A DNA stretch of 30,887 nt. Source: a virus. The stretch spans positions 1 to 30,887 of IMG/VR virus record IMGVR_UViG_3300022841_000005; one strand, written 5' to 3'. Made by a program: the position numbers and the translations under genes. Shown here one piece after another: positions 6,513 through 30,382 of this stretch. Positions within the stretch are counted from its first letter, which is position 1. The number at the start of each line of letters is the position of its first letter. Under the pieces are notes generated by a model. The model worked only from the letters and a program-made list of their open reading frames with translations, was not told where the DNA came from and made no database searches.

Positions 6513-6547
6513 ACAAAAACTAACGATATAAATATTATATAACTATG
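6513..6547 (+). promoter_or_regulatory. Bipartite late element, copy 1 (ACAAAA-N14-TATTATATAA, then CTATG)
   Basis: ACAAAA at 6513-6518, 14 nt, then TATTATATAA at 6533-6542, followed by CT and the ATG of the protease gene at 6545. It is one of five copies with the same spacing in this genome, each before a late gene. Promoter function is inferred from the fixed spacing and locations. Confidence 0.5.
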
Positions 6548-7141
6548 GATATGAAAATTATAGAATTAATCTTAGACGAAGAGGAGGGTATCGGTGTTGA
6601 AGCTATTTCGGTAGTAGAAAATCCCGCTATCGAATCTGACTTTATAGCTTTGAAAAGCGAACAAATACAACTTGCTGAAATAAACAAAGAGAAACGTTTA
6701 TTGATGGGTGCTTTGTTAATACCAGAAAAGCCTATTTATCGTAAGAATGAAGTAGAAGAATATTATGTATTCTTTTCAAAAGAAACTATTGTTAAAGCTT
6801 CTCAATTATATCTAACAAACGGCAATCAATCTAACTCAACTTTAGAACATAAAGGAAAATTAGAGGGTTTAACGTTGGTAGAATCTTGGATAGTTGAGGA
6901 CAAAGACAAAGACAAAACTAAACTATACGGTTTAGATGTGCCTGTAGGTACTTGGATGGGTTCGGTAAAAGTAAACAATGATGATGTTTGGAACGAATAC
7001 GTTAAGACGGGTAAAGTAAAAGGGTTTTCTATAGAGGGATATTTTGCAGATAAATTAGTAGAAACTAAACACGATGAAAAATTGTCTTTAGAGGATGAAC
7101 AATTATTAACTGACTTAATAAAACTTTTAACAGATGGCTAG
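6545..7141 (+). CDS. Head maturation protease, XkdF-like (198 aa)
   Basis: The protein matches the XkdF-type putative phage serine protease family. It opens with IELILDEEEGIGVEAISVVENPAIESDF, a typical start; then RLLMGALLIPEKPIYR (about 51-66), STLEHKG with His102, LVESWIVED (about 111-119), GTWMGSVKV (135-143) and GFSIEGYF with Ser162. His102 and Ser162 are the probable catalytic residues. It would process the scaffold and capsid during head assembly. Here it stands alone with its acidic and coiled-coil partners before the capsid gene. The start at 6545 is set by the upstream late element; ATG 6551 in the same frame is an alternative. Confidence 0.8.
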   Translation: MDMKIIELILDEEEGIGVEAISVVENPAIESDFIALKSEQIQLAEINKEKRLLMGALLIPEKPIYRKNEVEEYYVFFSKETIVKASQLYLTNGNQSNSTLEHKGKLEGLTLVESWIVEDKDKDKTKLYGLDVPVGTWMGSVKVNNDDVWNEYVKTGKVKGFSIEGYFADKLVETKHDEKLSLEDEQLLTDLIKLLTDG

Positions 7142-7259
7142 AGCGGTTTATTGTAAGTGCAAAAACACTTATTCAATTGAATGTAAAGACGACCAAAAAT
7201 GCGAAACTCCAGACTATTGGAAACAAGGCATCGGCTCTATTAATAAAATAGATGAGTAG
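7134..7259 (+). CDS. Small Cys-containing protein (41 aa)
   Basis: ATG 7134 overlaps the protease stop by 8 nt, and the frame runs 41 codons to TAG 7257. The product has four cysteines spaced C-x-C-x(8)-C-x(5)-C (VYCKCKNTYSIECKDDQKC) and ends QGIGSINKIDE. The Cys pattern could bind a metal. Small proteins of this sort are common in Bacteroidetes phage head modules by my recollection, but no role is known. The next late element follows 6 nt after its stop. Confidence 0.5.
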   Translation: MARAVYCKCKNTYSIECKDDQKCETPDYWKQGIGSINKIDE

Positions 7260-7265
7260 CAAAAT

Positions 7266-7300
7266 ACAAAATTTAACTTAATAATTATTATATAAATATG
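7266..7300 (+). promoter_or_regulatory. Bipartite late element, copy 2 (ACAAAA-N14-TATTATATAA, then ATATG)
   Basis: ACAAAA at 7266-7271 and TATTATATAA at 7286-7295, spacing 14 nt, with the ATG of the next gene at 7298. It is identical in both boxes to copies 1 and 3. Confidence 0.5.
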
Positions 7301-7684
7301 AACGTAAGCAAACAAGTCTTTAGCAGACTTTTTAAGGAAGAGAAAACCGAGTTAGAAACTCATAAAATTGAGTTGGCATTGGTTGACGATATTGTAAAGG
7401 TTTATAATGATATAAAATCAAAAGCAGACGCCTTATCAATGCAAGCTAGACGAGCAGCACAAGAATTAGACGAAACATCAAATAAAGCAAAGCAATTATT
7501 AAAGGAGATTCAATCTTCTGAATCTGATAGCAAAAGGCTTACAACATCTGCAAAAGATTTAGGTATACAGATACCCGCAGAAGCTTCTATCGCTATTAAT
7601 CAATTACAAGCATATAGAAGTGATTTAGCGGAATTAGATTCGACAACATCAAAAGCTTCGGATATGGTTTTTGGTATGATGTAA
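7298..7684 (+). CDS. Coiled-coil head-module protein, putative scaffold or assembly factor (128 aa)
   Basis: 128 residues, almost entirely helical in pattern: a Lys/Glu-rich N-terminus (VFSRLFKEEKTELETHKIEL), then heptad-like sequence around residues 25-80 (DIKSKADALSMQARRAAQEL), and a C-terminal helix ending DMVFGMM. It has no Cys and no enzyme motif. Its place between the head protease and the capsid gene, and its composition, fit a scaffold or a capsid assembly aid. This is inference; no family is recognised. It has its own late element immediately upstream. Confidence 0.55.
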   Translation: MNVSKQVFSRLFKEEKTELETHKIELALVDDIVKVYNDIKSKADALSMQARRAAQELDETSNKAKQLLKEIQSSESDSKRLTTSAKDLGIQIPAEASIAINQLQAYRSDLAELDSTTSKASDMVFGMM

Positions 7685-7721
7685 TAATAAAATAAAAGGT
7701 TTTGAATTTTAAATTAAATAT

Positions 7722-8330
7722 ATGAACACAAAAGAAACATTAAACAAAGTTAGAACCTTACTTGGTATTCAGGTAAAGTTTGAACAGATGCAAATTGAGA
7801 ACGGTGCAGTTTTAGAAGCTGAAGCGTTTGAGGTTGGTGCAGAAGTTTTTATCGTTGCGGATGATGAAAGAGTCGCAGTACCCGTAGGAGAGTACACCGT
7901 TACAGAAAGCGGAATGGTAATCATAGTATCTGACGAGGGAATTATCGGAGAAATTAAAGACGCTACAGCACCTGAAGAAGAAGTTGTTGAAGAAGAAGAA
8001 AATCCACAAGCCGAATTACCAGCAGACCCGTCTGCAGCAGGCAGAACGCCTGTGCCGACTTTACCAGATGAATTAGCAAACGAAAAAGCAACTCCTAAAA
8101 AGGTTGTTAAATCTATTTCAGAAGAAACGTTCTTTGCAGAGATTGAGAAGTTAAGAAATGAATTTAAATTGTCTCAAGAACCTAAAGTAGAATTATCTGC
8201 GGAGGTTGAAGAAGTTAGTGGAATTTCTCACAATCCAGAAAGCAAATCAGATAAAAAAGAATTATTCCTTTATTCTCAAAAAGGTAAAAAATCAGTATTA
8301 AACACAATCTATAATCAAATAAATAAATAA
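7722..8330 (+). CDS. Acidic head-module protein, putative scaffold (202 aa)
   Basis: The first 90 residues contain a beta-like repeat region (EAFEVGAEVFIVADDERVAV, then VGEYTVTESGMVIIVSDEG). A very acidic linker follows (EEEVVEEEEN, about 86-95), then a Pro/Ala-rich stretch (about 97-125) and a Lys/Glu helix at about 130-160. The C-terminus, SQKGKKSVLNTIYNQINK, is basic. This domain order is familiar from a protein that precedes the major capsid gene in Bacteroidetes phages and may act as scaffold or capsid chaperone. It lies 2 nt before the capsid start, so the two are almost certainly co-translated. Confidence 0.55.
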   Translation: MNTKETLNKVRTLLGIQVKFEQMQIENGAVLEAEAFEVGAEVFIVADDERVAVPVGEYTVTESGMVIIVSDEGIIGEIKDATAPEEEVVEEEENPQAELPADPSAAGRTPVPTLPDELANEKATPKKVVKSISEETFFAEIEKLRNEFKLSQEPKVELSAEVEEVSGISHNPESKSDKKELFLYSQKGKKSVLNTIYNQINK

Positions 8331-8332
8331 AA

Positions 8333-9265
8333 ATGGCTACAGTTTTAACAATTAACACAACTTACGCTGGAGAATTTGCAGGAAAATATATTTCTGCTGC
8401 ATTACTTTCAGGTAACACAATCGCAAACGGACTAATTGAAATTAAGCCGAATGTAAAATTTAAAGAAGTTTTAAAAAGACTTGACATTGATGGTATCGTT
8501 GCAGATGCATCTTGTGATTTCTCTGATACTTCTACGGTAACTTTAAGCGAAAACATCTTAGAGCCTAAATCTTTACAAGTAAATTTAGAACTTTGTAAGA
8601 CACCTTTCGAAAGCGATTGGGAAGCGGTATCAATGGGATATTCTGCACACGATAACTTGCCAAAGACTTTTAGCGATTACTTTATTGCACACGTTGCAGC
8701 AAAAGTAGCTACTAAGACAGAAAAAGATATTTGGACAGGTGTGGCTGGTGCGGGTGCATTTGATGGTTTTTCTACATTGTTGGCAGCTGATGCTGATTTG
8801 CCAGCTAATCAAAAAATTGCGGGTGTAGCGATTACTGCTGCAAACGTTGTTGAGGAGTTAGGTAAGGTAGTAGACGAGATTCCAACCTCTTTATATGGTA
8901 ATGAAGATTTATATATCTACGTTTCGCAAAACGTATGGAGAGCATACAAAAGAAGTTTAGGTGGTTTCCAAAGTGGTGGTCAAGGAGGTTCAGGATTTAG
9001 TGCAATGGGTAACAACCAAGACATAGACATTCAGTTTTTTGATGGTGTAAAGGTTGTCGTTGCAAATGGTTTAGCAGATTCAACAATGATTTCAACTTTA
9101 AAAACTAACTTATTTTTTGGAACAGGTTTAATGTCTGACCAAAACGAAGTAAAAGTATTAGATATGGCTGATTTAGATGGTTCTAAAAACGTTCGTTTCA
9201 TTATGAGATATACGGCAGCAGTTCAGTACTCTATTGTTGAAGACATCGTTACATACGGAATCTAA
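8333..9265 (+). CDS. Major capsid protein (310 aa)
   Basis: 310 residues, of normal length for an HK97-fold capsid protein without a large delta domain. It starts MATVLTINTTYAGEFAGKYI; residues about 60-100 hold a CDFSDTSTVTLSENILEPKS segment and the E-loop-like TPFESDWEAVSMGY. A FIAHVAAKVATKTEKDIWTG helix (about 118-137) corresponds to the spine helix, and the C-terminus ends MRYTAAVQYSIVEDIVTYGI. Location after protease and scaffold-like genes and before a strong terminator supports the call. The terminator at 9289-9323 lies just past its stop, as is frequent for capsid genes. Confidence 0.8.
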   Translation: MATVLTINTTYAGEFAGKYISAALLSGNTIANGLIEIKPNVKFKEVLKRLDIDGIVADASCDFSDTSTVTLSENILEPKSLQVNLELCKTPFESDWEAVSMGYSAHDNLPKTFSDYFIAHVAAKVATKTEKDIWTGVAGAGAFDGFSTLLAADADLPANQKIAGVAITAANVVEELGKVVDEIPTSLYGNEDLYIYVSQNVWRAYKRSLGGFQSGGQGGSGFSAMGNNQDIDIQFFDGVKVVVANGLADSTMISTLKTNLFFGTGLMSDQNEVKVLDMADLDGSKNVRFIMRYTAAVQYSIVEDIVTYGI

Positions 9266-9288
9266 AAAATAATTAATAACATTAAAAA

Positions 9289-9323
9289 GAGGTAGGTGGT
9301 TTATCTACTTACCTCTTTTTTTT
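9289..9323 (+). terminator. Rho-independent terminator after the capsid gene
   Basis: GAGGTAGGTGG (9289-9299) pairs with CTACTTACCTC (9305-9315) in an 11-bp stem with two G-T pairs and a 5-nt loop, followed by T8 (9316-9323). The next gene starts only 18 nt later, so it depends on read-through or on RNA processing. Confidence 0.85.
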
Positions 9324-9340
9324 ATAACACAAAAAAATAT

Positions 9341-9868
9341 ATGGCTTGTTTATTAACATCGGGTAGAAAATTACCTTGTAAAACGTCTGTAGGTGGTTTA
9401 AAAGCGGTTTATTTCGCTGACTATGGCACACTTGGAGATGTAACAATTACAGCGGGAGAGATTACAGCGGTTGCTGGTACTCCTGAATTTTTCAAGTTCG
9501 ATATAAAAGGTAATTCATCTCTAGAAACTGCGGTTAACAGTTCAAGAGAAAATGGAAGTACTTTTTATACAACGACTTTAAACTTAACATTAACAACTTT
9601 AGATAGAGCAACACAAGAAGAAATTAAGTTATTATCTACTTCAAGACCACACGTGGCGGTAGAAGACTATAATGGTAATTTCTTTATGGTTGGTTTAGAA
9701 CACGGTTCGGAAGTAACGGGTGGTACTATTGTATCAGGTGCTGCTATGGGCGATTTGTCAGGATTTACCTTGACATTGGAAGCTATGGAAACCGCTCCAG
9801 CTAACTTTACTGCATCAACTGTAGTAACTTCAAATGAGAGTGTAGACCAAATAGACCCTAACGCTTAG
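9341..9868 (+). CDS. Major tail tube protein (175 aa)
   Basis: The reading frame is open from further upstream, but that would start inside the terminator; ATG 9341 (MACLLTSGRKLPCKTSVGGL) is the natural start. The 175-residue protein has the Bacteroidetes tail tube pattern: GGLKAVYFADYG (18-29), an ENGSTFYTTTLNLTL strand pair (about 72-86), HGSEVTGGTIVSGAAMGDLSG and FTLTLEAMETAPANF. Such proteins form stacked hexameric rings of the tail tube. It is framed by two strong terminators, so it may make its own short mRNA. It is separated from the tape measure by the whole head module, which is unusual. Confidence 0.75.
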   Translation: MACLLTSGRKLPCKTSVGGLKAVYFADYGTLGDVTITAGEITAVAGTPEFFKFDIKGNSSLETAVNSSRENGSTFYTTTLNLTLTTLDRATQEEIKLLSTSRPHVAVEDYNGNFFMVGLEHGSEVTGGTIVSGAAMGDLSGFTLTLEAMETAPANFTASTVVTSNESVDQIDPNA

Positions 9869-9886
9869 GACTATATTAAATGATTT

Positions 9887-9922
9887 AAAAACCCTTAACT
9901 TAATTGTTAAGGGTTTTTTTTT
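9887..9922 (+). terminator. Strong rho-independent terminator after the tail tube gene
   Basis: A perfect 13-bp stem, AAAAACCCTTAAC-type arm at 9887-9899 with its complement at 9906-9918, has a 6-nt loop and continues into T9 (9914-9922). With a late element 12 nt further on, it separates two transcription units. Confidence 0.9.
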
Positions 9923-9933
9923 GCTTTTCAACT

Positions 9934-9968
9934 ACAAAAAACGTGCTTTATTGTATTATATAACTATG
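9934..9968 (+). promoter_or_regulatory. Bipartite late element, copy 3 (ACAAAA-N14-TATTATATAA, then CTATG)
   Basis: ACAAAA at 9934-9939 and TATTATATAA at 9954-9963, spacing 14, ATG at 9966. It stands 12 nt after a strong terminator, where a promoter is needed to transcribe the portal genes. This is the best contextual evidence that the element is a promoter. Confidence 0.55.
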
Positions 9969-10328
9969 AAGCATTTGTTACCGATTACAACAACCCAAAC
10001 CATACAGATTATACCTCGTGTATATTCTATAATCGTTACGTTAAAGCTTCGAGATGATAGCACAAACGAAACGGTTACAATATTACCAAGTGCTATTAAA
10101 TCTGGCAACTACATTGAGTTATCAAATGTTTACGAACTAAAAGAGGGTCGTTTTTACGATTTAAAAATATACAATGGTCAAGGTGTCGTAACTGATTTAG
10201 ACATCATCTATAGAGATAAAATATTTTGTACCGAGCAAACAATAAACCAAACCGCAAACGAACGTTACAGAATCAACAAAGACGAATATAAAGAGCAAAG
10301 CGGTAATAATGATTTTATAATATTATGA
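9966..10328 (+). CDS. Conserved phage structural-region protein (120 aa)
   Basis: The frame opens at 9921, but that is inside the terminator; ATG 9966, placed 2 nt after the late element, is the start. The 120-residue product is beta-rich: VYSIIVTLKLRDDSTNETVT, LKEGRFYDLKIYNGQG, then IIYRDKIFCTEQ and a NNDFIIL end. This 'fY-L-x-I ... iYRDKIFCT' signature recurs, from memory, in a short virion-associated protein of Bacteroidetes phages with no proven function. It overlaps the portal start by 4 nt (ATGA). A small head-decoration or neck protein is possible. Confidence 0.55.
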   Translation: MKHLLPITTTQTIQIIPRVYSIIVTLKLRDDSTNETVTILPSAIKSGNYIELSNVYELKEGRFYDLKIYNGQGVVTDLDIIYRDKIFCTEQTINQTANERYRINKDEYKEQSGNNDFIIL

Positions 10329-12181
10329 GTAAATACATAAACAAACATCGTAAAACGTTTACACCTACACCAAACAAGTCTAAAGTTAGTTTTGTAAATC
10401 TTAGCACCTATACAAGTCCCGAGATTATAGAATCTAAAAACAAAGAATGGGTTGAATTTGGAGCGAATAACGACTACTTTCAATTTCTAATAGACCGTTA
10501 CAACGGTTCTGCGACAAACAATGCGGTAATCAATGGAATAAGTCAAATGATATACGGTCGTGGCTTAGATGCTACGGATTCGGCTCGTAAGTCAGATGCA
10601 TACGCTCGTATGATATCATTGTTTAAAAAAGAAGATAATAAACGATTTGCATCTGATTTAAAACTAGCTGGACAGTGTGCTATTCAAGTTATTTATTCAA
10701 AAGATAAAAAGACTATTCAAAAGGTTGAGCATATCCCTATTGAAACATTAAGAGCAGAGAAATGCAGCGAAGATGATAAAGAGATACAAGCGTATTACTA
10801 CCATCCTGATTGGGTGAGTATAAAGCCTAGCGAAGAACCTAAAAGAATACCATCATTTGGATTGACCGAGAAACCCGCACCTATTGAAATACTTTATGTT
10901 AAACCATACAGATCGGGTATGTATTATTACAGCACACCTGATTATCAGGGTGGTTTGCAATATGCTGAACTTGAAGAAGAAATTAGTAACTACCATTTAA
11001 ACAATATTATGAATGGTTTAGCACCTAGTATGTTAATCAATTTTAATAATGGTGTGCCAGAAGAAGAAGCACAAAAACTAATAGAAAATAAGATACAACA
11101 AAAGTTTAGCGGGTCTAGTAATGCGGGTAAATTTATACTAGCTTTTAACGACTCTAAAGAATCACAAGCGGACATTACACCCGTTCAATTATCTGACGCT
11201 CATAATCAATATCAGTTTTTAAGTGATGAATCACAAAAGAAAATAATGGTTGCTCATAGAGTGGTTAGCCCTATGTTATTAGGGATTAAAGACGGAAGCG
11301 GATTTGGTAACAATGCAGACGAATTAAAGAACGCTAGTATATTGATGCACAACACGGTTATAGTGCCATTACAAGAAATGCTAACAGATGCGTTCGATAA
11401 AATACTAGCGTTTAACGGGATTAGTTTAAACCTTTACTTTAAGACGTTACAGCCATTGCAATTTATGGATTTGGACAACGTACAAGACGAAGAAACTAGA
11501 GAAGAAGAAACGGGTGTTAAAATGAGTGTTGCGTTGTCTAAGTTAAATGAATTAGGCGAAGATGAAAACCTTGAGGAATGGGAATTAATAGACGAAAGAA
11601 AGGTAGATTATGAAGACGAAGACGAGTTAGACGAACAAATCAATAGTTTAAACAAACCAAAACAAAGTCTATTATCTAAGATTAAGAACTTCGCTACAAC
11701 GGGAACGGCAAGACCCAACGCAAAAAGTTCACAAGATGGTGTAGAGCCTACTTTCGGATTACAATATAAAGTAAGGTATCAATACGCACCTCTTAAAGCA
11801 TCTAGAGATAGTAGAGATTTTTGTAAGAAAATGGTAGAATCTAAAAAAATATATCGTAAAGAAGATATTGTAGGTAAAAATTACCCAGCTTCATTAGGTG
11901 GTATGTCTAGTAGTTCAGTCAATGCTGGTTGGGGTCTTAATGGTGCTGATAATTACGACATTTTTAAGTATAAAGGCGGTGGAGATTGCCATCATTTTTG
12001 GATGCGTAAGACTTATTTAGCTAAAAGAGTAGGCGGAAAGCCTGATGTTGGAAATCCTAAATCGGTTATTAGTGTAAATAAAGCAAAGAAAGCGGGCATA
12101 AAACCCGTTAGGAATGATAAAGAAGTGGCAATGTTACCAACTGATATGCCTAATAACGGATTTGTAAATAAAAGAAGATAA
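10325..12181 (+). CDS. Portal protein with extra C-terminal domain (618 aa)
   Basis: Residues 1-430 match the Bacteroidetes phage portal type: EWVEFGANNDYFQFLIDRYNG (about 42-62), AVINGISQMIYGRGL (about 68-82), a QYQFLSDESQKKIMVAHRV helix and MLLGIKDGSGFGNNADEL. Portals form the dodecameric vertex ring through which DNA enters. After an acidic linker (about 390-440) a separate domain follows (about 475-570): SRDFCKKMVESKKIYRKEDI, then NYDIFKYKGGGDCHHFWMRK. That domain resembles the C-terminal part of minor head (Mu F/SPP1 gp7-like) proteins and may replace a separate head-morphogenesis gene. The start overlaps the upstream stop (ATGA). Confidence 0.8.
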   Translation: MSKYINKHRKTFTPTPNKSKVSFVNLSTYTSPEIIESKNKEWVEFGANNDYFQFLIDRYNGSATNNAVINGISQMIYGRGLDATDSARKSDAYARMISLFKKEDNKRFASDLKLAGQCAIQVIYSKDKKTIQKVEHIPIETLRAEKCSEDDKEIQAYYYHPDWVSIKPSEEPKRIPSFGLTEKPAPIEILYVKPYRSGMYYYSTPDYQGGLQYAELEEEISNYHLNNIMNGLAPSMLINFNNGVPEEEAQKLIENKIQQKFSGSSNAGKFILAFNDSKESQADITPVQLSDAHNQYQFLSDESQKKIMVAHRVVSPMLLGIKDGSGFGNNADELKNASILMHNTVIVPLQEMLTDAFDKILAFNGISLNLYFKTLQPLQFMDLDNVQDEETREEETGVKMSVALSKLNELGEDENLEEWELIDERKVDYEDEDELDEQINSLNKPKQSLLSKIKNFATTGTARPNAKSSQDGVEPTFGLQYKVRYQYAPLKASRDSRDFCKKMVESKKIYRKEDIVGKNYPASLGGMSSSSVNAGWGLNGADNYDIFKYKGGGDCHHFWMRKTYLAKRVGGKPDVGNPKSVISVNKAKKAGIKPVRNDKEVAMLPTDMPNNGFVNKRR

Positions 12182-12182
12182 T

Positions 12183-12683
12183 ATGGCTACAGCATTATTC
12201 ATAAGCAGAACAGATTTAGTAAAGAATACGATTGTAGACGGCAATGTCGACACCGATAAGTTTATACAATTCATTAAAATTGCTCAAGAAATACATATTA
12301 CGAACTATTTAGGCTCGAAATTATATAATAAAATTAGTTCAGACATTGTAGCGGGTAGTTTATCAGGCGATTATTTGTCTCTAGTGAACGATTACATACA
12401 ACCTATGTTAATACATTTCGCTATGGTTGAGTATTTACCATTCGCAGCGTATCAAATTAAAAATGGTGGTGTTTCTAAGCATAGTTCTGAAAATTCCGAA
12501 AGCGTAAGTAAGAGCGAAATTGAGTTTTTAGTACAAAAAGAACGAGATACATCGGAATACTACACAAGACGCTTTGTGGATTACATTTGTTTTAACTCTG
12601 ATAAATTCCCAGAGTACAACACAAACAAAGATAGCGATGTACGACCAGACAAGGATTCTAACGTATCTAATTGGGTTTTATAA
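12183..12683 (+). CDS. Head-tail connector protein, DUF6712-like (166 aa)
   Basis: 166 residues beginning 1 nt after the portal stop. The N-terminal half is helical: LFISRTDLVKNTIVDGNVD, then FIKIAQEIHITNYLGSKLYN and LVNDYIQPMLIHFAMVEYLPF, the normal signature of the DUF6712/gp6-like connector that stacks under the portal. The C-terminal part (SEIEFLVQKERDTSEYYTRR) forms a further helix. Position directly after the portal supports the call. Confidence 0.65.
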   Translation: MATALFISRTDLVKNTIVDGNVDTDKFIQFIKIAQEIHITNYLGSKLYNKISSDIVAGSLSGDYLSLVNDYIQPMLIHFAMVEYLPFAAYQIKNGGVSKHSSENSESVSKSEIEFLVQKERDTSEYYTRRFVDYICFNSDKFPEYNTNKDSDVRPDKDSNVSNWVL

Positions 12684-12757
12684 TGAAAGCGACATACAAA
12701 CCAAAACAATCGAACATAGAGCGCTTAAAGACATACCTAAGTAAAAAAGAAAAATAA
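12683..12757 (+). CDS. Very small basic protein (24 aa)
   Basis: ATG 12683 overlaps the stop of the connector gene by 1 nt (TAATG) and the frame closes at 12755-12757, 3 nt before the fibre gene. The product begins MKATYKPKQSNIERLKTYL and is strongly basic. Tight junctions on both sides favour translation; the function is unknown. Confidence 0.4.
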   Translation: MKATYKPKQSNIERLKTYLSKKEK

Positions 12758-12760
12758 ATT

Positions 12761-22712: not shown

Positions 22713-22713
22713 A

Positions 22714-23205: not shown

Positions 23206-23219
23206 CTTGTTTTTGTTTT

Positions 23220-23250: not shown

Positions 23251-23260
23251 GTTTTAATAA

Positions 23261-23605: not shown

Positions 23606-23618
23606 AATTTCTATTTAT

Positions 23619-24140
23619 TTAATTAATTATTGTTTTACCTAATTCTTTTTCTGCTTGTTCTTTTGTAATGGTATCTGTAATAGTTGCCCATTTACCGTCT
23701 TTTAATAATAACAACCAATTACCCAGCTCAACTTGTTTAACCCATAATAAATTACCTCTTGATTCAAATTCAAAACCCATTTCCTTGACAGTACATCTTT
23801 TACCATCTTCTAAGCATTTAACTTTAGCACCCTCTTTAAACCCTCTCTTCTTAGCTTCTTTAATTAATACGGTTTCTACTTCTTTGTCGGTGGCTGGTTT
23901 AATCTTATTTATAACAGCTGTCTTTCTTTCTTTTTCCCAAACACCGCTATAAAAACCATAAGATTTAAGGGGATTTAATTCTGTAACATAGAATGTAGCA
24001 ATAATTGTTTTATACCATTTACCAACCTCTAATTCAGTTTCTTTAAACAACTTAGGAAACTCAAATTCAATCATATATTTCCAATCACTACAAGCGTGTT
24101 TATGGGCCTCAATGATAAACTTTTTTCTACTTTCTTTCAT
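23619..24140 (-). CDS. Hypothetical protein (173 aa)
   Basis: 173 residues, Lys/Glu-rich. The middle (GKWYKTIIATFYVTELNPLK, then FYSGVWEKERKT) and the region AKVKCLEDGKRCTVKEMGF suggest two small beta modules; ELGNWLLLLKDGKWATI repeats a similar short-strand style. This is the format of many phage accessory proteins and no enzyme motif is seen. Its leader over 18 nt is identical to that of the DUF3127 gene, suggesting the same translation signal. Role unknown. Confidence 0.6.
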   Translation of the reverse strand: MKESRKKFIIEAHKHACSDWKYMIEFEFPKLFKETELEVGKWYKTIIATFYVTELNPLKSYGFYSGVWEKERKTAVINKIKPATDKEVETVLIKEAKKRGFKEGAKVKCLEDGKRCTVKEMGFEFESRGNLLWVKQVELGNWLLLLKDGKWATITDTITKEQAEKELGKTIIN

Positions 24141-24145
24141 AATTT

Positions 24146-24520
24146 CTATTTATTTTCTAATTCTTTCTCTAAAAATGCTAACGCCCTCCAAGCTACCTTT
24201 GTGATATGTCTTATTCCGTCATCGTCTATTGGCTCGATGCTATGGTCTAACAAATGTCTAGACAATGCGTCTAATTCATCGCCTGACTTTGACCTATCCC
24301 AAGCTAATGTCTTGTCGGGGTTGTGTTGTTGCTGACCCGCAAAGCTACATTGTGCAACAGCCTTAATTGCATTCGGGAAGTATGCCAACACACCCGAAAA
24401 TACTGGGGTTTCTTTTCTCTTACCAATACGTTCTTGGTAGTGCGTACCATCGTTACCGTTTTGCTCAACGATTCGTTGTCTACGTTCTCTAGCTTCTTCT
24501 TCTACGTCTGTAATATTCAT
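24146..24520 (-). CDS. DUF5664 protein (dATP/dGTP diphosphohydrolase-type domain) (124 aa)
   Basis: The conserved order of DUF5664 is visible: VFSGVLAYFPNAIKAVAQCS (about 39-58), QQHNPDKTLAWDRSKSGDEL (about 63-82), LDALSRHLLD, then DDDGIRHITKVAWRALAFLE. In related phage proteins this fold is linked with dATP/dGTP diphosphohydrolases that alter the nucleotide pool. The His, Glu and Asp residues in these motifs could bind metal. Whether this protein is active on dNTPs is not proven. It overlaps or abuts its neighbours closely in the early operon. Confidence 0.75.
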   Translation of the reverse strand: MNITDVEEEARERRQRIVEQNGNDGTHYQERIGKRKETPVFSGVLAYFPNAIKAVAQCSFAGQQQHNPDKTLAWDRSKSGDELDALSRHLLDHSIEPIDDDGIRHITKVAWRALAFLEKELENK

Positions 24521-24522
24521 AA

Positions 24523-25167
24523 TTAAAAGTCTAAATTGTTTTTATGTTCGTTAATTTTAGTTTGCAATTCGTTTGCATACGTCAAAGATAATACTTTTAT
24601 TTCATTAATTGTTAATAATTTTGGTTTACTTTTAGTTCCGATATTTACAACACTTTCAAGCGTTAACTCTTTTACAAAGCTTTTCACGCTTTCAGGTCTA
24701 AAGGCACAAAAAAACAATTTCTCTAATTTAGGGTTTACCGTAAAATAGTGTACGCATTGGTGTATGTATTCCAAAGGTATTTCATTTGATATCAATATCT
24801 CGGTATGTTTCTTACGTGCTAAGCATTTTGTTTCACACGCCGCGGTATGGTCTTCTGTCAAACCGTCAGGACTAATACCTAACAATTCATTATCTTCACT
24901 CTGCAACCATCCGAACGCTTCGAACTTATAACCGCTATAAGTTTCTAAGTACTCTATTGCAAACGGTTCTAAATCATTACCTCTTTGCGTGTGTTCGTTC
25001 TCGAATGAATCGCTAGGCTCGAACTCTTCTAGGTGTTGACTAAGCAAGTCGATAAACAATGTATCTCCTTTTATATGTAATCCTTTCGATGCTGTGCCAC
25101 CAACACGACCCCATTTTAACTCAAACCATTCTAAGCTGGTTTGCTTTACTTCTTTATATGCTATCAT
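24523..25167 (-). CDS. YqaJ-type recombination exonuclease (214 aa)
   Basis: A PD-(D/E)xK enzyme of the YqaJ/lambda exonuclease group: RGNDLEPFAIEYLE (Glu67), LLGISPDGL (Asp101) and CETKC (Glu112, Lys114), followed by YIHQCVHYF (about 134-142), all in the expected order. It would degrade one strand at double-strand ends to load an annealing protein. The partner might be the 178-aa protein encoded two genes upstream (25358-25894), which is not proven to be an annealing protein. The start overlaps the upstream stop (ATGA). 214 residues is normal for the family. Confidence 0.85.
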   Translation of the reverse strand: MIAYKEVKQTSLEWFELKWGRVGGTASKGLHIKGDTLFIDLLSQHLEEFEPSDSFENEHTQRGNDLEPFAIEYLETYSGYKFEAFGWLQSEDNELLGISPDGLTEDHTAACETKCLARKKHTEILISNEIPLEYIHQCVHYFTVNPKLEKLFFCAFRPESVKSFVKELTLESVVNIGTKSKPKLLTINEIKVLSLTYANELQTKINEHKNNLDF

Positions 25168-25358
25168 AATTTATTTATTTCTTGTTTAACTTCTTGCCAA
25201 TACTCTAAGTCAACCCTATCATAAAAATTTAGTATCTCATCTACACAAATCAATGCACATTGTTTAGCACTAGTTTTGCTACCTTGATAACATTCGTTAA
25301 AATCTATGTTGCAATAAAAATTTTCTACTAATTCCTTAGCTTTTTCTTTTGGTGTCAT
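25164..25358 (-). CDS. Small conserved phage protein (64 aa)
   Basis: The sequence pattern MTPKEKAKELVENFYC... AKQCALICVDEIL... LEYWQEVKQEINKL is one that I recognise as a very common small protein of Bacteroidetes phages. It is helical, with no known activity. It overlaps the upstream gene by 1 nt and the exonuclease gene by 4 nt, so expression is linked with recombination genes. Confidence 0.7.
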   Translation of the reverse strand: MTPKEKAKELVENFYCNIDFNECYQGSKTSAKQCALICVDEILNFYDRVDLEYWQEVKQEINKL

Positions 25359-25894
25359 TACTTTAATTCTTTTTTAAGTGATTCTTTAAATGCTACGACA
25401 CTTGGTAAGCTTTTTTCTTCGCTACTAAGCTTATTCCAATTGCTAACAAGTTGTTTTAAATCCCTAGCATCATCTAACAACATTTTAGCTTTTACGTCTG
25501 AAATCTTAGATATTGGACTAATAGGCGAAACCCTGATACCACCCGTAAGTTTACCCATCATCTTTACGTTTTCATCAAAGATTAACTCTAACTTTAATCC
25601 TTTCCAATTACCTATATTTCTACTCGCTGCACCTGAACATTTGTTCTTAATCTTAATAATAGATGCTATTACTTTTCTATTAGTTGAGTTGACAACCATT
25701 GGCTTAACCGCTTCCATAAACTCTAAGAAATAGCCATCTGTTCTATTTCCTGAAACATCAACACCCGTATTATAATATGCGTCTTTTATTGTTAATATAC
25801 ATTTACCCTTTTCGGCTGATATCATATCTACATCAACACCAGCTAAATGGGTTGACTTTCTGTATTTCATACAATCTATATTATTTTCTTTCAT
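25358..25894 (-). CDS. Conserved phage protein beside YqaJ exonuclease; possible ssDNA-binding partner (178 aa)
   Basis: Visible signatures: MKYRKSTHLAGVDVDMIS, CILTIKDAYYNTGVDVSGNR, TDGYFLEFMEAVKPMVVNST, SRNIGNWKGLKLELIFDENV and GGIRVSPISPI. The C-terminal 50 residues form a helical domain with LVSNWNKLSSEEKSLPS. From memory this is a recurrent early protein of Bacteroidetes phages with no proved role. The beta-rich first two thirds may be an OB-like fold. Its neighbourhood (exonuclease, DUF3127) suggests that it binds or anneals DNA, but it does not match RecT, Erf or Sak signatures that I can see. Confidence 0.65.
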   Translation of the reverse strand: MKENNIDCMKYRKSTHLAGVDVDMISAEKGKCILTIKDAYYNTGVDVSGNRTDGYFLEFMEAVKPMVVNSTNRKVIASIIKIKNKCSGAASRNIGNWKGLKLELIFDENVKMMGKLTGGIRVSPISPISKISDVKAKMLLDDARDLKQLVSNWNKLSSEEKSLPSVVAFKESLKKELK

Positions 25895-25994
25895 CTTGTT
25901 TGGTTTTATCTATTCGTTGTTGTGCTTTTTGTATTGATACTTTGTTGTACATTTCTTTGTGTTTAAGAATGTGTTTCGCTTCGTCTAGTCTCAT
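25881..25994 (-). CDS. Small basic helical protein (37 aa)
   Basis: ATG 25994 overlaps the upstream stop (ATGA) and the stop lies 14 nt inside the next gene. The product starts MRLDEAKHILKHKEMYNKVS and ends in KTKQDERK; strongly basic and helical. No family is recognised. Confidence 0.5.
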   Translation of the reverse strand: MRLDEAKHILKHKEMYNKVSIQKAQQRIDKTKQDERK

Positions 25995-26128
25995 AAGTCG
26001 TTATGTTTATAACATTGTTCGCTGCAAAAGTCTTTCCCTTGCTCGATTGGTTGCTCACACTCTAAACAAGTGTTAGTGTTATCGTAATCTTCGTTGTATT
26101 GGTCTAAATCGTTGTCGAATGCTTCCAT
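25991..26128 (-). CDS. Small zinc-ribbon-like protein (45 aa)
   Basis: An acidic start (MEAFDNDLDQYNEDYDNTNT) is followed by CLECEQPI...FCSEQCYKH: CxxC and CxxxC pairs separated by 10 residues, a short zinc-binding knuckle like those of DUF2116-type proteins. It is joined to the next gene by ATGA overlap. Host-interaction or regulatory functions are usual for such early proteins, but none is shown. Confidence 0.6.
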   Translation of the reverse strand: MEAFDNDLDQYNEDYDNTNTCLECEQPIEQGKDFCSEQCYKHNDL

Positions 26129-26129
26129 A

Positions 26130-26270
26130 TTATTTTAATCTAAAGTCTTTGTTTGTGTTGATGTCCTCTTTTAGTTTGATTTCTTTTATCAATCGCTTTG
26201 CATCTTGTTGAGTTTCACACTCAGCAATTAACTCATATTTCTTTTGATATACTTTTGTTTTCTTACTCAT
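26130..26270 (-). CDS. Small hypothetical protein (46 aa)
   Basis: 46 codons from ATG 26270, which overlaps the upstream stop, to TAA ending at 26130, 1 nt before the zinc-ribbon gene. The product starts MSKKTKVYQKKYELIAECET and is Lys-rich with a helix (QDAKRLIKEIKLKED). No family is recognised; tight packing indicates a real gene. Confidence 0.5.
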   Translation of the reverse strand: MSKKTKVYQKKYELIAECETQQDAKRLIKEIKLKEDINTNKDFRLK

Positions 26271-26493
26271 ATTGCTTTAAATAATTACGTGTTAATTCTA
26301 ATTGCTCGTCTGTTGGTGTTTCCCTGTTACCCATATCCATATCAAATTCTACAAATACATCGTGTCTAAAGTCATATATAATACTAAGGTATGCAATGCT
26401 ATCAGAAATAAACAAAGATAGCGTACAACCTTGCTTAATGGGTTCTTGACTATGTAGCAAGAGTCGGAACTCTTTATTTTTTAAATAACTCAT
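26263..26493 (-). CDS. Small hypothetical protein (76 aa)
   Basis: Start ATG 26493 (MSYLKNKEFRLLLHSQEPIK) is chosen because it reduces overlap with the upstream gene to 20 nt; an ATG at 26514 would add seven residues. The middle (CTLSLFISDSIAYLSIIYDF) is hydrophobic and beta-like, the end (PTDEQLELTRNYLKQYE) helical. No family is recognised. The stop overlaps the next gene by 8 nt. Confidence 0.5.
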   Translation of the reverse strand: MSYLKNKEFRLLLHSQEPIKQGCTLSLFISDSIAYLSIIYDFRHDVFVEFDMDMGNRETPTDEQLELTRNYLKQYE

Positions 26494-26644
26494 CGTTTTG
26501 TTTTGCGATTTCATTATAAACTTCTATTTTGCCCTCTGTAACTGCTATTTTAATTTCGGTTTCTAATTGCTGCAACTTAGTTTCTAGCCACCAATTATCG
26601 TTTGAATTTGCGTAGTTTATTAAATCTTCTAATACTTCTTTCAT
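26474..26644 (-). CDS. Small helical early protein (56 aa)
   Basis: 56 residues starting MKEVLEDLINYANSNDNWWL and rich in Glu, Lys and Asn; likely one or two helices. It lies 4 nt after a 20-codon frame and overlaps the next gene by 20 nt. No family is recognised. Confidence 0.45.
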   Translation of the reverse strand: MKEVLEDLINYANSNDNWWLETKLQQLETEIKIAVTEGKIEVYNEIAKQNDELFKK

Positions 26645-26648
26645 AATG

Positions 26649-26711
26649 TTATCTTTTTATACTGTGGATTGCTCTGGCTAATTCTTTTAAAAAATTGTAT
26701 AGTTTTCTCAT
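26649..26711 (-). CDS. Very small basic peptide (20 aa)
   Basis: A 20-codon frame (MRKLYNFLKELARAIHSIKR) lies between two other tiny early genes with gaps of only 4 and 7 nt. The peptide is amphipathic and basic. The regular spacing favours translation, but so short a frame could occur by chance. Confidence 0.3.
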   Translation of the reverse strand: MRKLYNFLKELARAIHSIKR

Positions 26712-26718
26712 AATGTTT

Positions 26719-26841
26719 TTAGTTTGCGGTAATACTACCATCCGAATAATGTAGGCAAATAATACCTGTTTGTAAAATAACCACGTTCGTTACGTGCTTT
26801 GTGTTAAAAATCTTGTTTACTGCTCTTTTAATTAGTTTCAT
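26719..26841 (-). CDS. First gene of the minus-strand operon (40 aa)
   Basis: 40 codons from ATG 26841, starting MKLIKRAVNKIFNTKHVTNV and ending HYSDGSITAN. It is the most promoter-proximal gene: a TATCTTTG box lies 20 nt upstream. Its N-terminus is basic and the rest beta-like. First early genes often act on the host, but no function can be read from the sequence. Confidence 0.5.
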   Translation of the reverse strand: MKLIKRAVNKIFNTKHVTNVVILQTGIICLHYSDGSITAN

Positions 26842-26860
26842 ATCTTTTTTAATTATACAT

Positions 26861-26868
26861 CAAAGATA
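26861..26868 (-). promoter_or_regulatory. Candidate early promoter of the replication operon (-7 box TATCTTTG)
   Basis: On the minus strand TATCTTTG fits the Bacteroidetes -7 consensus TAnnTTTG exactly; transcription would begin near 26854, 13 nt before the first ATG. A clear TTG at -33 is not seen (GTTTC occurs there). The octamer cluster begins about 60 bp upstream, so binding there could control this promoter. Confidence 0.5.
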
Positions 26869-26927
26869 CAACATTATTTTAGTTTTGAAACTACTTTTGT
26901 GATATTTTAACATAACTTTAACATATT

Positions 26928-27214
26928 AGTGTAAAGTAAACTGTAAAGTGTAAAGCGTTTGTAAAGTCGAGTTTACAATTTTTTTTGATGTAACTTATTG
27001 ATTCTCACAGCCTTTAGCTCATATTTGTAAAGTACTTTACACTTTACACCTATATAAATAAATATTTTTATTTTTACTTTTTTTTAAAATTACATTAAAA
27101 AAGTGTAAACTTTACACTCTAAAACTCTGCAACACTAGCTACCATTACAAACAACCCTCAAAACACTTTACACTTTTTTGTAAAGTACTTTACACTTTAC
27201 TTTACACTTTACAA
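26928..27214. repeat. Cluster of about 16 octamers GTGTAAAG / CTTTACAC: candidate origin or operator region
   Basis: The 443-bp divergent gap (26842-27284) has no gene. Sites on the plus strand (some with one or two changes): 26929, 26941, 26948, 26959, 27025, 27103, 27178. Inverted: 26971, 27035, 27042, 27110, 27166, 27188, 27195, 27200, 27207. They form a 17-nt palindrome with C centre (27102-27118), two copies of GTAAAGTACTTTAC (27027-27040, 27180-27193) and a 23-bp direct repeat (27025-27047 and 27178-27200). Between them lie A/T-rich stretches (27050-27100). Iterons with an adjacent AT-rich block suggest a replication origin; a large operator is the alternative. Confidence 0.75.
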
Positions 27215-27284
27215 TAATAGTATATATAATATATTGTTATTAAGTATTATACTATAGTAAGTCTATTATTATTACCTTTACGTT

Positions 27285-27767
27285 ATGAAAACTATGTTAG
27301 AGAAAGTATTTGACGACCACACTAAGTGGATTAATACAACCAAACGCTTTGGATGCTCTAAAGAAGAGGCAGAAGACATAGTGGGAGATATGTATTATAT
27401 TATAGGTAAGATGCTCAACAAAGGTTTAGATATTAGTTATGGCGATAGTGTAAATTATTTCTATATCTATAGAACTCTAAAGACATCTTTTCTACAATTA
27501 AAGAACAGACAAACAAAAGAGAATGCAATATCTTTAGACAATGATTTTGATGTTTACTTAGAATCATCCGAGCCTATAGACTTTGATATAGCTAATAATA
27601 AAGTATTAGATGCCTTAGATAAAATGCATTGGTATGATAAAAAGATATATAATTTAATTCAATATGAATACTCAATCACTAAGCTACATAAAAAGACGGG
27701 TATAAGCTATCATAGTTTATACAATACATATCGAAAAGTTAAACAACAACTAAAAGAATTGTTATAA
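27285..27767 (+). CDS. Sigma-70-family-like transcription factor (160 aa)
   Basis: Two-domain layout of ECF-type sigma factors. Residues 15-75 resemble region 2: RFGCSKEEAEDIVGDMYYII, then VNYFYIYRTLKTSFLQLKNR. Residues 105-158 resemble region 4 with a helix-turn-helix: DKKIYNLIQYEYSITKLHKK, TGISYHSLYNTYRKVKQQL. An acidic linker joins them. It would direct host RNA polymerase, or act as a transcription regulator, possibly at the five late elements of this genome (inference). It is transcribed away from the octamer cluster. A stand-alone HTH regulator is an alternative because region 2 is only weakly conserved. Confidence 0.6.
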   Translation: MKTMLEKVFDDHTKWINTTKRFGCSKEEAEDIVGDMYYIIGKMLNKGLDISYGDSVNYFYIYRTLKTSFLQLKNRQTKENAISLDNDFDVYLESSEPIDFDIANNKVLDALDKMHWYDKKIYNLIQYEYSITKLHKKTGISYHSLYNTYRKVKQQLKELL

Positions 27768-27970
27768 TGAAAAAAACCCTAATATTAATACTTACCTTTT
27801 ATAGTTGCACTACCATAGATGATATCGTGCTTTATTGTGATTGCACCGAAACAATCTATTCCTTAGACACTAAGGCAACCGTAACTAATTTAGATGGGTG
27901 CTATAATGATTTTGAAATACAAGACTTTAAGTACCTAGATGGTAGAATTAAAATAATAAACTGTGAATAA
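27767..27970 (+). CDS. Small lipoprotein (67 aa)
   Basis: MKKTLILILTFYSC is a short lipoprotein signal with lipobox Cys14. The mature part (about 53 residues) has four further cysteines (YCDCTE, GCYND, INCE at the end), which may form disulfides in the periplasm. It overlaps the sigma-like gene by 1 nt, so both are translated together early or middle in infection. An exported early phage lipoprotein could block superinfection or modify the envelope; this is inference only. Confidence 0.6.
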   Translation: MKKTLILILTFYSCTTIDDIVLYCDCTETIYSLDTKATVTNLDGCYNDFEIQDFKYLDGRIKIINCE

Positions 27971-28034
27971 TCTAATCGTGTATTTCGTTTGTGCGATGCT
28001 CGTTTGTATGGTGCTGCTAAAAAAAGAAAAATGA
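27963..28034 (+). CDS. Very small membrane protein (23 aa)
   Basis: A GTG-started frame of 23 codons (NNLIVYFVCAMLVCMVLLKK) with one full hydrophobic segment and a basic end. It overlaps the lipoprotein gene by 8 nt and the next gene by 4 nt (ATGA). Overlap at both ends and the clear membrane segment favour a real gene in spite of its size. Confidence 0.45.
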   Translation: MNNLIVYFVCAMLVCMVLLKKEK

Positions 28035-28162
28035 AACTAGGGAACTTAATTGAATTAATTACAAGATACACGGGTATAAAATGGCTCGTAAAAAAGATAT
28101 GGGGCGATGCTTGTAGATGTGATGAAAGAAAAGATACATTAAATGATATTGAATTATGGTAG
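28031..28162 (+). CDS. Conserved small phage protein with GD-CxC-DERK motif (43 aa)
   Basis: 43 residues starting MKLGNLIELITRYTGIKWLV and continuing KKIWGDACRCDERKDTLND. The pattern 'ITxxTGIKxxVKxxxGDxCxCDERKxxLN' is one that I recognise as a frequent small protein of Bacteroidetes phages, located near the terminase genes, without known role. Its two Cys residues could bind metal. It overlaps its neighbours on both sides (4 nt and 7 nt). Confidence 0.6.
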   Translation: MKLGNLIELITRYTGIKWLVKKIWGDACRCDERKDTLNDIELW

Positions 28163-28350
28163 ATGATGTAAGATTGTGGGGAGATGTGCGGTCTAAGATA
28201 GTTAACAAGCTATCTAATGAACATTTTAAGATATTGTGTGTGCTTCATTCAAAGTATTTTAATCATCGATATAACGAGCCTTGTACGTGTAATAAAAGAA
28301 TATTAAGAAAATGGATATTAGATTTAGACAACAAACTCCTTGCCAATTAA
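28156..28350 (+). CDS. Conserved small phage protein with CxC motif (64 aa)
   Basis: 64 residues: MVDDVRLWGDVRSKIVNKLS, then FKILCVLHSKYFNHRYNEPC and TCNKRILRKWILDLDNKL. The 'LHSxYFNHxYxxPCxC' pattern is, from memory, recurrent beside terminase genes in Bacteroidetes phages. Cys and His residues suggest a small metal-binding fold. Role unknown. It overlaps the preceding gene by 7 nt. Confidence 0.55.
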   Translation: MVDDVRLWGDVRSKIVNKLSNEHFKILCVLHSKYFNHRYNEPCTCNKRILRKWILDLDNKLLAN

Positions 28351-28394
28351 AGTCAGCTACTAAATTAGGGCGTAGTACAGATGAGTGTTGGTAA
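28311..28394 (+). CDS. Possible very small protein (27 aa)
   Basis: ATG 28311 lies inside the previous gene (40 nt overlap) and the frame continues to TAA 28392-28394, giving a product that ends LGRSTDECW. It fills part of the gap before 28416. Long overlap and small size make this uncertain. Confidence 0.25.
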   Translation: MDIRFRQQTPCQLKSATKLGRSTDECW

Positions 28395-28415
28395 GGGTTT
28401 TAATAAAATATAATT

Positions 28416-28538
28416 ATGAAAAATAAAAAGTTTACAGTTAACGAAAGGTTAGTACTTGTTGAGAAAATGACCTATAAATTAGCATTAGAAGTACAAGCGA
28501 TTGTGAATGCTATTAAAAAAACTAAAGAAGAAATATAA
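28416..28538 (+). CDS. Small basic protein (40 aa)
   Basis: 40 codons after an A/T-rich leader (TAAAATATAATTATG, related to the late element but without its upstream box). The product starts MKNKKFTVNERLVLVEKMTY and ends AIKKTKEEI; helical and basic. No family is recognised. Confidence 0.45.
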   Translation: MKNKKFTVNERLVLVEKMTYKLALEVQAIVNAIKKTKEEI

Positions 28539-28556
28539 CAACTAAATACAAACAAA

Positions 28557-28724
28557 ATGACTAAAGTAATTAAGAAAGATGAACAACTAAACGACCAACA
28601 AAAACAAGCACTAAACATCTTGATTCAAGCGGTTAAAATCGCAACAACTAAAGGGTGTTTCGAGTTAGACGATGCTATAGTAATCGGTTACGCAAAGAAT
28701 ATTGTTGAGAGTCTTTTAAAATAA
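28557..28724 (+). CDS. Small conserved helical protein (55 aa)
   Basis: 55 residues: MTKVIKKDEQLNDQQKQALN, then LIQAVKIATTKGCFELDDAI. The 'QALNxLIQAVxxAxxKGxFxLxxA' pattern occurs in many small proteins of Bacteroidetes and their phages; its function is not known to me. It is the last small gene before the terminase operon, with a late element 13 nt after the stop. Confidence 0.55.
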   Translation: MTKVIKKDEQLNDQQKQALNILIQAVKIATTKGCFELDDAIVIGYAKNIVESLLK

Positions 28725-28737
28725 TCATAGAACTTTA

Positions 28738-28772
28738 ATAAAATATAGTAATATATCTATTATATAACTATA
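28738..28772 (+). promoter_or_regulatory. Bipartite late element, copy 4 (ATAAAA-N14-TATTATATAA, then CTATA)
   Basis: ATAAAA at 28738-28743 and TATTATATAA at 28758-28767, spacing 14. Here the triplet at the usual ATG position is ATA, and the gene start is 34 nt downstream (28804). This copy therefore shows that the element is kept without a start codon, as expected for a promoter and not a ribosome-binding site. Confidence 0.5.
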
Positions 28773-28803
28773 AGGTTTGAATAATCAAGTTTTATCAAAG
28801 ACT

Positions 28804-29043
28804 ATGGAAAACGAAAAGAGAGGTGGTAAAAGAGATAATGCAGGTCGTAAATCAAAGAGCGAAGAGGTGCAAATGATTGAACGACTTACACCTTTAGAGC
28901 CTAAAGCATTTGAAGCGTTAGAGAAAGGAATCGAAAACGGGGATTTTAAATACGTGCAAATGTTTTATAACTACTACGCTGGTAAACCAAAAGAAACGAA
29001 AGACATTTCTATTACGTCTGAACAACCTTTATTCGATTTGTAA
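28804..29043 (+). CDS. Terminase small subunit (79 aa)
   Basis: ATG 28804 is preferred to an upstream TTG at 28777. The start MENEKRGGKRDNAGRKSKSE has the basic 'GG-x-R-x-x-AGRK' signature that opens small terminases of Bacteroidetes phages; helices follow (LTPLEPKAFEALEKGIENGD, then YVQMFYNYYAGKP). It recognises phage DNA and recruits the large subunit, whose ATG follows the stop directly at 29044. 79 residues is short for the family, so it may be only the DNA-binding and oligomerisation core. Confidence 0.7.
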   Translation: MENEKRGGKRDNAGRKSKSEEVQMIERLTPLEPKAFEALEKGIENGDFKYVQMFYNYYAGKPKETKDISITSEQPLFDL

Positions 29044-30207
29044 ATGTTCCAAAGCACAACAGCTATTAAGAAGTTACACGCACTTACAAAGCGTAAGAAA
29101 GTAATACAAGGGGGTACATCGGCTGGTAAAACATTCGGGATACTCCCTATTCTTATTGATAGAGCTATTAGAACACCTCAATTAGAAACGAGTGTTGTAT
29201 CTGAATCTATCCCGCATTTACGTAGGGGTGCAATGAAAGACTTTCTTAAAATAATGATATCAACGGGTCGGTATCGAGATGGTCAATGGAATAGGTCAGC
29301 ACTTAAATACACTTTTACGAATGGTTCGTACATTGAGTTCTTTAGCGTAGAGCAACCCGACAAACTAAGAGGTGCAAGACGTAACGTGCTCTATGTTAAT
29401 GAAGCAAACAACATACCATTTGAAGCTTACAATCAATTAGCTATTAGAACATCTGGAGATATTTGGATTGACTTCAACCCAACAGCAAACTTCTGGGCAC
29501 ACAAAGAAGTCGCAACTCAAGATGATGCAGAGTTCATCACACTAACTTATTTAGACAACGAAGCACTACCTGATACGATTGTAAAAGATATTGAATCAGC
29601 AAGGGACAAAGCTAAGGATTCATCTTATTGGCACAATTGGTGGCAAGTGTACGGTCTTGGTAAGGTGGGTTCTTTAGATGGTGTGTGTCTTACCGATTGG
29701 CAAGAAATAAAGCTACCTGATGAAGCACGTTTGTTATGTTATGGTATGGATTTTGGATATTCAAATGACCCTACAACTTTGATAGGATTGTATAAGTATA
29801 ACAATGCTTATATTTTTGATGAGATAATACACCAAAAGAAACTATTAAATTCAGATATATCCGACTTATTAAAAGCAAACGATATAAACGAGGTGGTGTA
29901 TGCGGATAGTGCTGAGCCGAAATCAATAGCTGAACTAAGAACACACGGACATAATATATTACCGTGTACTAAAGGCAAGGACTCTATCGTCTATGGTATT
30001 AATTTAATCAACCAAAATAAGATATACATAACTTCAAGAAGTACGAATCTAATCAAAGAATTACAATCATACACTTGGTTAAAAGATAGAGAAGGCAACA
30101 CAATAAATAAGCCTATTGATGCTTTTAATCATTGTATAGACGCTTGCAGATATGCTATCACTTCACAATTGAAGACACCTAACAAGGGTAAATACTTTAT
30201 TAGATAA
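29044..30207 (+). CDS. Terminase large subunit (387 aa)
   Basis: The DNA-packaging motor. ATPase part: Walker A GGTSAGKT (23-30) and Walker B-like VLYVNEAN (115-122), in which Asn replaces the usual first Asp, as in related phages. Nuclease part: YGMDFGYSNDPT, then VVYADSAEP and DAFNHCIDACRYA, giving the three acidic positions of the RNase H-like centre. 387 residues is slightly short but complete, and all motifs are present. It cuts concatemers and translocates DNA into the head through the portal. It overlaps the next small gene by 1 nt (TAATG). Confidence 0.9.
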   Translation: MFQSTTAIKKLHALTKRKKVIQGGTSAGKTFGILPILIDRAIRTPQLETSVVSESIPHLRRGAMKDFLKIMISTGRYRDGQWNRSALKYTFTNGSYIEFFSVEQPDKLRGARRNVLYVNEANNIPFEAYNQLAIRTSGDIWIDFNPTANFWAHKEVATQDDAEFITLTYLDNEALPDTIVKDIESARDKAKDSSYWHNWWQVYGLGKVGSLDGVCLTDWQEIKLPDEARLLCYGMDFGYSNDPTTLIGLYKYNNAYIFDEIIHQKKLLNSDISDLLKANDINEVVYADSAEPKSIAELRTHGHNILPCTKGKDSIVYGINLINQNKIYITSRSTNLIKELQSYTWLKDREGNTINKPIDAFNHCIDACRYAITSQLKTPNKGKYFIR

Positions 30208-30359
30208 TGGACACACTTACAATGATTGCGACAATACAATGCTTTATCCACCACAAAGCGGGTAAAGAAATTAAGGTCGCAATGCCTAGAACACCATCAC
30301 AATTTTTTCTTGTTACTAAAGCATACGAAAATTGTAAGGGTTTTTTTATAAAACATTAA
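30207..30359 (+). CDS. Small hypothetical protein after terminase (50 aa)
   Basis: ATG 30207 overlaps the terminase stop; the frame ends at TAA 30357-30359. The 50-residue product (MDTLTMIATIQCFIHHKAGK at its start) has basic patches and ends GFFIKH. Its 3' end contains the first box of late element copy 5. No family is recognised. Confidence 0.45.
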   Translation: MDTLTMIATIQCFIHHKAGKEIKVAMPRTPSQFFLVTKAYENCKGFFIKH

Positions 30360-30382
30360 CAAAATACTATTATATAAATATG
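30348..30382 (+). promoter_or_regulatory. Bipartite late element, copy 5 (ATAAAA-N14-TATTATATAA, then ATATG)
   Basis: ATAAAA at 30348-30353 and TATTATATAA at 30368-30377, spacing 14, ATG at 30380. It overlaps the end of the small gene upstream and precedes the tail operon. Confidence 0.5.

Follow-up and report, generated by a model that had tools for sequence, protein, structure and literature searches.

Predicted late promoters and a candidate ECF-type sigma factor in the genome of an uncultured phage

The stretch of DNA analyzed here (the window) comprises all 30,887 nt of the virus record IMGVR_UViG_3300022841_000005. Since a 121-bp direct terminal repeat is present at positions 1-121 and 30767-30887, the record probably represents the whole genome in circularised form. 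Its late genes are directed rightward; they start at 28.7 kb, cross the record end, and reach about 16.5 kb. The early/replication block is directed leftward and occupies 16.5-26.5 kb.

A first-pass annotation of the window had placed the sequence TATTATATAA at positions 6533, 7286, 9954, 28758, and 30368, always on the plus strand and always with AYAAAA exactly 14 nt upstream, the letters of the spacers being different. This description proved accurate: TATTATATAA is present at all five positions, the upstream box stands at that distance in 5 of 5 cases, and the pattern AYAAAA-N14-TATTATATAA has five exact matches on the plus strand and none on the minus strand. When up to two mismatches were allowed over the whole record, again just these five elements were detected, and a reversed-pattern control gave zero matches. 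Scored with a matrix derived from related phages, which takes in sites of near-identical relatives, the five elements reach 25.7-30.0 bits, while the sixth-best place in the window has a score of 0.9. As a control, 60 order-2 Markov sequences of window length were scored, and their best places had a mean of 3.5 and a maximum of 17.5 bits. Chance AT-rich repeats were ruled out by these spacing, strand, and score controls. A search in Rfam gave no match.

The elements are interpreted below as predicted late promoters, all on the plus strand. Promoter 1 (6513..6545, ACAAAA-N14-TATTATATAA-C-TA) has its predicted +1 at 6545, the A of the ATG of the head protease gene; promoter 2 (7266..7298, ACAAAA-N14-TATTATATAA-A-TA), at 7298, the A of the ATG of a 128-aa gene; and promoter 3 (9934..9966, ACAAAA-N14-TATTATATAA-C-TA), at 9966, the A of the ATG of a 120-aa gene ahead of the portal gene. 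For promoter 4 (28738..28770, ATAAAA-N14-TATTATATAA-C-TA), the predicted +1 at 28770 would be followed by a 7-nt leader and the TTG start of the ORF at 28777, which is in the terminase small-subunit position. Promoter 5 (30348..30380, ATAAAA-N14-TATTATATAA-A-TA) has its predicted +1 at 30380, the A of the ATG of the next gene. As for the genes named earlier behind these elements, profile matches confirm the protease (Peptidase_S78_2), the portal, and the terminase. No confirmation was obtained for a "coiled-coil head protein" at 7298 or a "tail chaperone" at 30380.

Alignment of the sites showed that the element extends beyond its first description. A conserved N-T-A follows TATTATATAA, the spacer contains only A/T just before the -10 box, and A is preferred 5 and 4 bases ahead of the -35 box. 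At four of the five window sites (6545, 7298, 9966, and 30380), the final A of the TA doubles as the first base of the start codon, and the same coincidence with ATG is found in 53 distinct sites. At 39 distinct sites without ATG, this T is retained in 87% and this A in 90%, and the following base is unconserved. Because the TA is conserved even at sites without ATG, its A is probably the +1 position, seven bases past the TATTAT part. In addition, homologous proteins start at the same abutting ATG; since the predicted +1 is the A of this ATG, the corresponding late mRNAs probably have no leader. This would set the late genes apart from the usual gene of this kind of host, since 87% of the predicted transcripts of F. 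johnsoniae have a leader of >10 nt (PMC6847099).

Conservation of the element was analyzed in 160 related loci, which were collected from viral contigs with the portal as one query and the sigma-like ORF as the other. These loci contain 93 exact copies along the late-gene orientation and none in the opposite one; 93 copies have a spacing of 14, none a spacing of 8-13 or 15-20, and three a spacing of 21. A separate scan of a viral collection with TATTATATAANTATG plus RYAAAA, in which the gap was free from 8 to 22, gave a gap of 14 at 49 of 84 sites among the matches listed, each other gap accounting for eight or fewer. In the related loci, sites with gaps of 12 or 16 seem to have a -35 box of this family that is shifted or degenerate, and are probably not a separate class. 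With up to two mismatches, 19 of 20 long related records contain sites, per record on one strand only, and a backward control pattern gave 0-1 matches per record. Random occurrence on both strands in relatives, which the first-pass annotation had named as an observation against its promoter reading, was looked for and did not happen. Motif-blind examination of the regions upstream of orthologs picked by gene (protease, g202, g120, and g30380; ~50-90% protein identity) showed both boxes in nearly all protease, g120, and g30380 cases and in most g202 cases. These comparisons show the element to be conserved in a large family of uncultured phages.

Nine loci with a gap of 14 have no homologs of window genes. 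Eight of the nine share one conserved site, and the ninth, L228, stands apart. One exact motif copy each was seen in L247 (1075-1626), L210, L223, L225, L227, L246, L249, and L284, where it precedes a gene that resembles, by eye, that of the gp55 late sigma. These eight contigs apparently belong to T4-type marine phages, and their motif copy is probably a resemblance to the T4 late promoter.

The ORF at 27285..27767 (plus strand) encodes a putative ECF-type sigma factor of 160 aa with sigma2 and sigma4 only, as indicated by alignment, profiles, and predicted structure. When viral contigs were scanned with a profile, at least 552 relatives were confirmed. According to an alignment, the N-terminal half is region-2-like, and the C-terminal half has a helix-turn-helix with a near-invariant SLYNTYRKVK. 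The Sigma70_r2 profile matches 9 of 20 members of the family (best 1e-4) and Sigma70_r4_2 matches two of 20 (0.03); the window's own protein, which is too diverged for a confident single-sequence profile match, has neither and gives weak HTH and phrog_1740 matches alone. According to the predicted structure (pLDDT 85), two helical domains, with helices at 4-80 and 100-159, are separated by a stretch of low confidence at 82-94, which corresponds to the ECF layout of sigma2 and sigma4 joined by a linker, with no sigma1.1 or sigma3. Nearly all of the best 19 PDB matches found by Foldseek are ECF sigma chains, and the best solved structures are ECF sigmas of M. tuberculosis, P. aeruginosa, and E. 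coli (E-values 0.002-0.1). The pTM of 0.46 and the Foldseek E-values >0.001 are due to the loose linkage of the two domains. The predicted sigma identity draws its support from the consistency of these results, not from one strong match.

A tblastn search of phage records with the window sigma as a single query found nothing, and the same search with a diverged member of the family led to P12024. When bacterial genomes were scanned with the sigma profile, a single MAG contig of 3.5 kb was matched, at L208:1230-1670; binned with a Campylobacterales MAG, it is probably a misbinned phage contig, and the scan gave no sign of a host-genome origin of the sigma. The 30.7-kb record G027, to which L243 belongs, contains two sigma-family matches (27254-27736 and 30412-30618), one of which is a partial C-terminal copy.

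Several observations connect this sigma with the element. The sigma gene is present in 9 of 11 long records selected by portal, and the two records without it may be fragments. In the relatives, the element is located 170-190 nt upstream of the sigma gene for 44 of 74 sigma genes, a position that suggests autoregulation; the window has no good copy upstream of its own sigma gene. In relatives (L103 9804-10001 and orthologous places), a long leader of 170-190 nt extends from the promoter copy to the sigma start codon. In the isolate P12024L, which also has a sigma relative, a count of bipartite words unguided by the motif was topped by ACAAA-N14-CGTTAAT, with five copies that precede late genes and mostly abut ATG; for the genes at 3031, 5412, and 26011, the A of ATG lies 12 nt past the C of CGTTAAT. 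In the Flavobacterium phage FPSV-S2, whose terminase is 52% identical, neither a sigma relative nor any motif variant was found.

The -10 box also varies with the sigma clade: it is TGTAATATAA in L150-L151 and L076, CGTTATATA in the 42-48% group, and CGTTAATA in P12024L. The sigma proteins L149/L150 and L336 (the sigma of the L076 record) have RALRNxF in region 2, where others have RTLRTSF-like sequences, and these sharers of RALRNxF are just 59% identical overall. In L152, at the same distance from the window, TLRTSF and a TATTA box are both retained. The resulting region 2/-10 pairs are RTLRTSF-like with TATTATATAA, RALRNxF with TGTAATATAA, and TLxxxFLD with CGTTATATA. This is suggestive of co-divergence of the sigma and its -10 box, a correspondence confounded by shared ancestry.

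The five elements are very probably late promoters that are read by the phage's own ECF-type sigma on the host RNA polymerase. In the proposed mechanism, the phage sigma would join the host enzyme; its region 4 would contact RYAAAA in the -35 role and its region 2 would contact TATTATATAA in the -10 role, and the conserved TA downstream would supply the starting A of the transcript. In four of the five cases, this A belongs to the ATG, so that the late mRNAs would be leaderless or nearly so, and in most relatives the promoter copy of the sigma gene itself would create positive feedback. The first-pass annotation had suggested a late promoter class that is specific to the phage and contacted at two points by one protein, and the fixed spacing of 14 against varying spacers, the constant late-gene orientation, and the presence of a suitable sigma in the genome all speak for it. 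In addition, the -7 box TAHHTTTG, a consensus from Bacteroidetes (PMC6847099), the presumed host phylum, occurs in 0 of 5 sites. With somewhat less assurance, it can be proposed that late transcription in this large family of flavobacteria-type siphophages proceeds mostly via its own ECF sigma with +1 at the start-codon A, which would make virion mRNAs leaderless, and that changes in region 2 between clades were accompanied by changes in the -10 box.

Recognition of the same promoters by the primary or an alternative sigma of the host is improbable. The AT-rich -10-like sequence and the absence of a phage RNA polymerase among the profile matches would agree with it, but the sequence differs from the Bacteroidetes promoter with TAHHTTTG and the -33 TTTG (PMC6847099), the elements accompany the phage sigma and diverge along with it, and the phage with a related terminase that has no such sigma has no elements either. 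Even less probable is that the elements are activator sites or operators next to a separate unseen promoter. The sites end at start codons or 2-30 nt before them, their last bases are an initiator-like TA, and no room is left downstream for a separate promoter; moreover, sites in reverse orientation are absent in the related loci and long records, although a fixed two-part spacing would suit an activator too and the TTATATAA part is palindromic.

The remaining two explanations concern the start codon. An RNA-level signal for translation initiation, that is, an extended Kozak-like context of the start codon, would account for the four of five sites that adjoin ATG; start codons in this phylum normally follow A/T-rich sequence (PMC6847099), and motif-free genes show taaatATG-like contexts. 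Against this stand the 39 distinct sites without ATG and the copies at a distance from the gene they precede (170-190 nt for the sigma gene, 20-40 nt for others). We know of no role of a fixed box 30 nt upstream in Bacteroidetes ribosome binding. A translation signal was ruled out as many sites are away from a start codon, and it has the lowest probability of the explanations considered. A more plausible option, though a minority one, is a +1 displaced by a few bases from the A of ATG, giving a leader of 1-5 nt or the use of a downstream start codon; this is a refinement of the late-promoter explanation and is compatible with it. Start-site choice by a sigma holoenzyme can vary, and a second in-frame ATG lies two codons after the one at 6545, whereas the beginning of homologous proteins at the abutting ATG and the conservation of the A even where there is no ATG favor a start at the A itself.

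The closest proven precedent for late promoters read by a phage sigma is Salmonella phage 7-11 with its sigma gp47 (PMC8948821). This phage sigma has region 4 and uses late promoters of the form GTAAtg-16-aCTA; the bipartite promoters are all upstream of late genes, and early genes are left to the host sigma (PMC8948821). Both systems combine a phage sigma, putative in the window, with a pair of boxes that keep a set distance and lie ahead of late genes, pointing the same way as these, but the boxes and the spacing are different, the host of 7-11 is gammaproteobacterial, and its leaders are not reported to be absent. By analogy, the system of the window may work like that of 7-11, the new features being the boxes, the host phylum, and a +1 fused to the start codon. 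In phiEco32, gp36 drives middle and late genes with a start 6-8 bp downstream of the box (PMC8948821, PMC4331800); it uses the single element tAATGTAtA and has no region 4 homology, whereas the window has a sigma4-like domain and a -35 box. The late promoters of T4 (TATAAATA), which depend on gp55, are similar in having a phage sigma-like protein and an AT-rich -10 element at late genes. They have no -35 box and require the gp45 clamp. The role of gp45 is described in PMC2988020.

The Nonlabens phages P12024L/S (Inhavirus) have a portal with 36% identity and an analogous element abutting ATG. The sigma relative of P12024L is 28% identical to L158 and carries an independent annotation of Sigma-70 region 2. 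Unlike the window, P12024L has the -10 box CGTTAATA instead of TATTATATAA, and nearly all its genes are on one strand. No description of promoters of Inhavirus or related Bacteroidetes phages was found in open-access literature. From sequence alone, the analysis names a candidate regulator of the early-to-late switch and candidate sites of its action, for a large family of marine-type phages in which no published study of transcription was found. It also offers a natural set of sigma/promoter pairs that appear to change together, and predicts leaderless late mRNAs in a phylum without Shine-Dalgarno signals.

Other signals were found near the promoters. A strong intrinsic terminator with a 13-bp stem and a T-tract (9887..9918, plus strand) ends just 5' of promoter 3. 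In relatives, the terminase-gene promoter is often nested in a terminator, with the -35 hexamer as the hairpin loop and the T-tract as the spacer. At least five such promoter/terminator hairpins have stems unlike in sequence and an identical layout (plus strand; -35 starts at L097:6827, L204:3284, L194:4295, L098:3640, and L288:940). This nesting suggests selection for halting incoming transcription at the very point from which the late promoter would start it anew.

A scan for sigma-70-type promoters around the late genes found 17, compared with 15 in shuffles, an uninformative difference. Boxes of the TAHHTTTG type are too frequent in the window to count as evidence alone. One of them, TATCTTTG (26861..26868, minus strand), a host-type -7 box by the published consensus (PMC6847099), precedes the leftward early gene block and is a candidate early promoter, for which the evidence is weak because its 8-mer class is common. 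In the divergent region between the early genes and the sigma gene, a cluster of TGTAAAGTACTTTACA and GTGTAAAG direct and inverted repeats (26916-27219) looks like iterons or operator sites.
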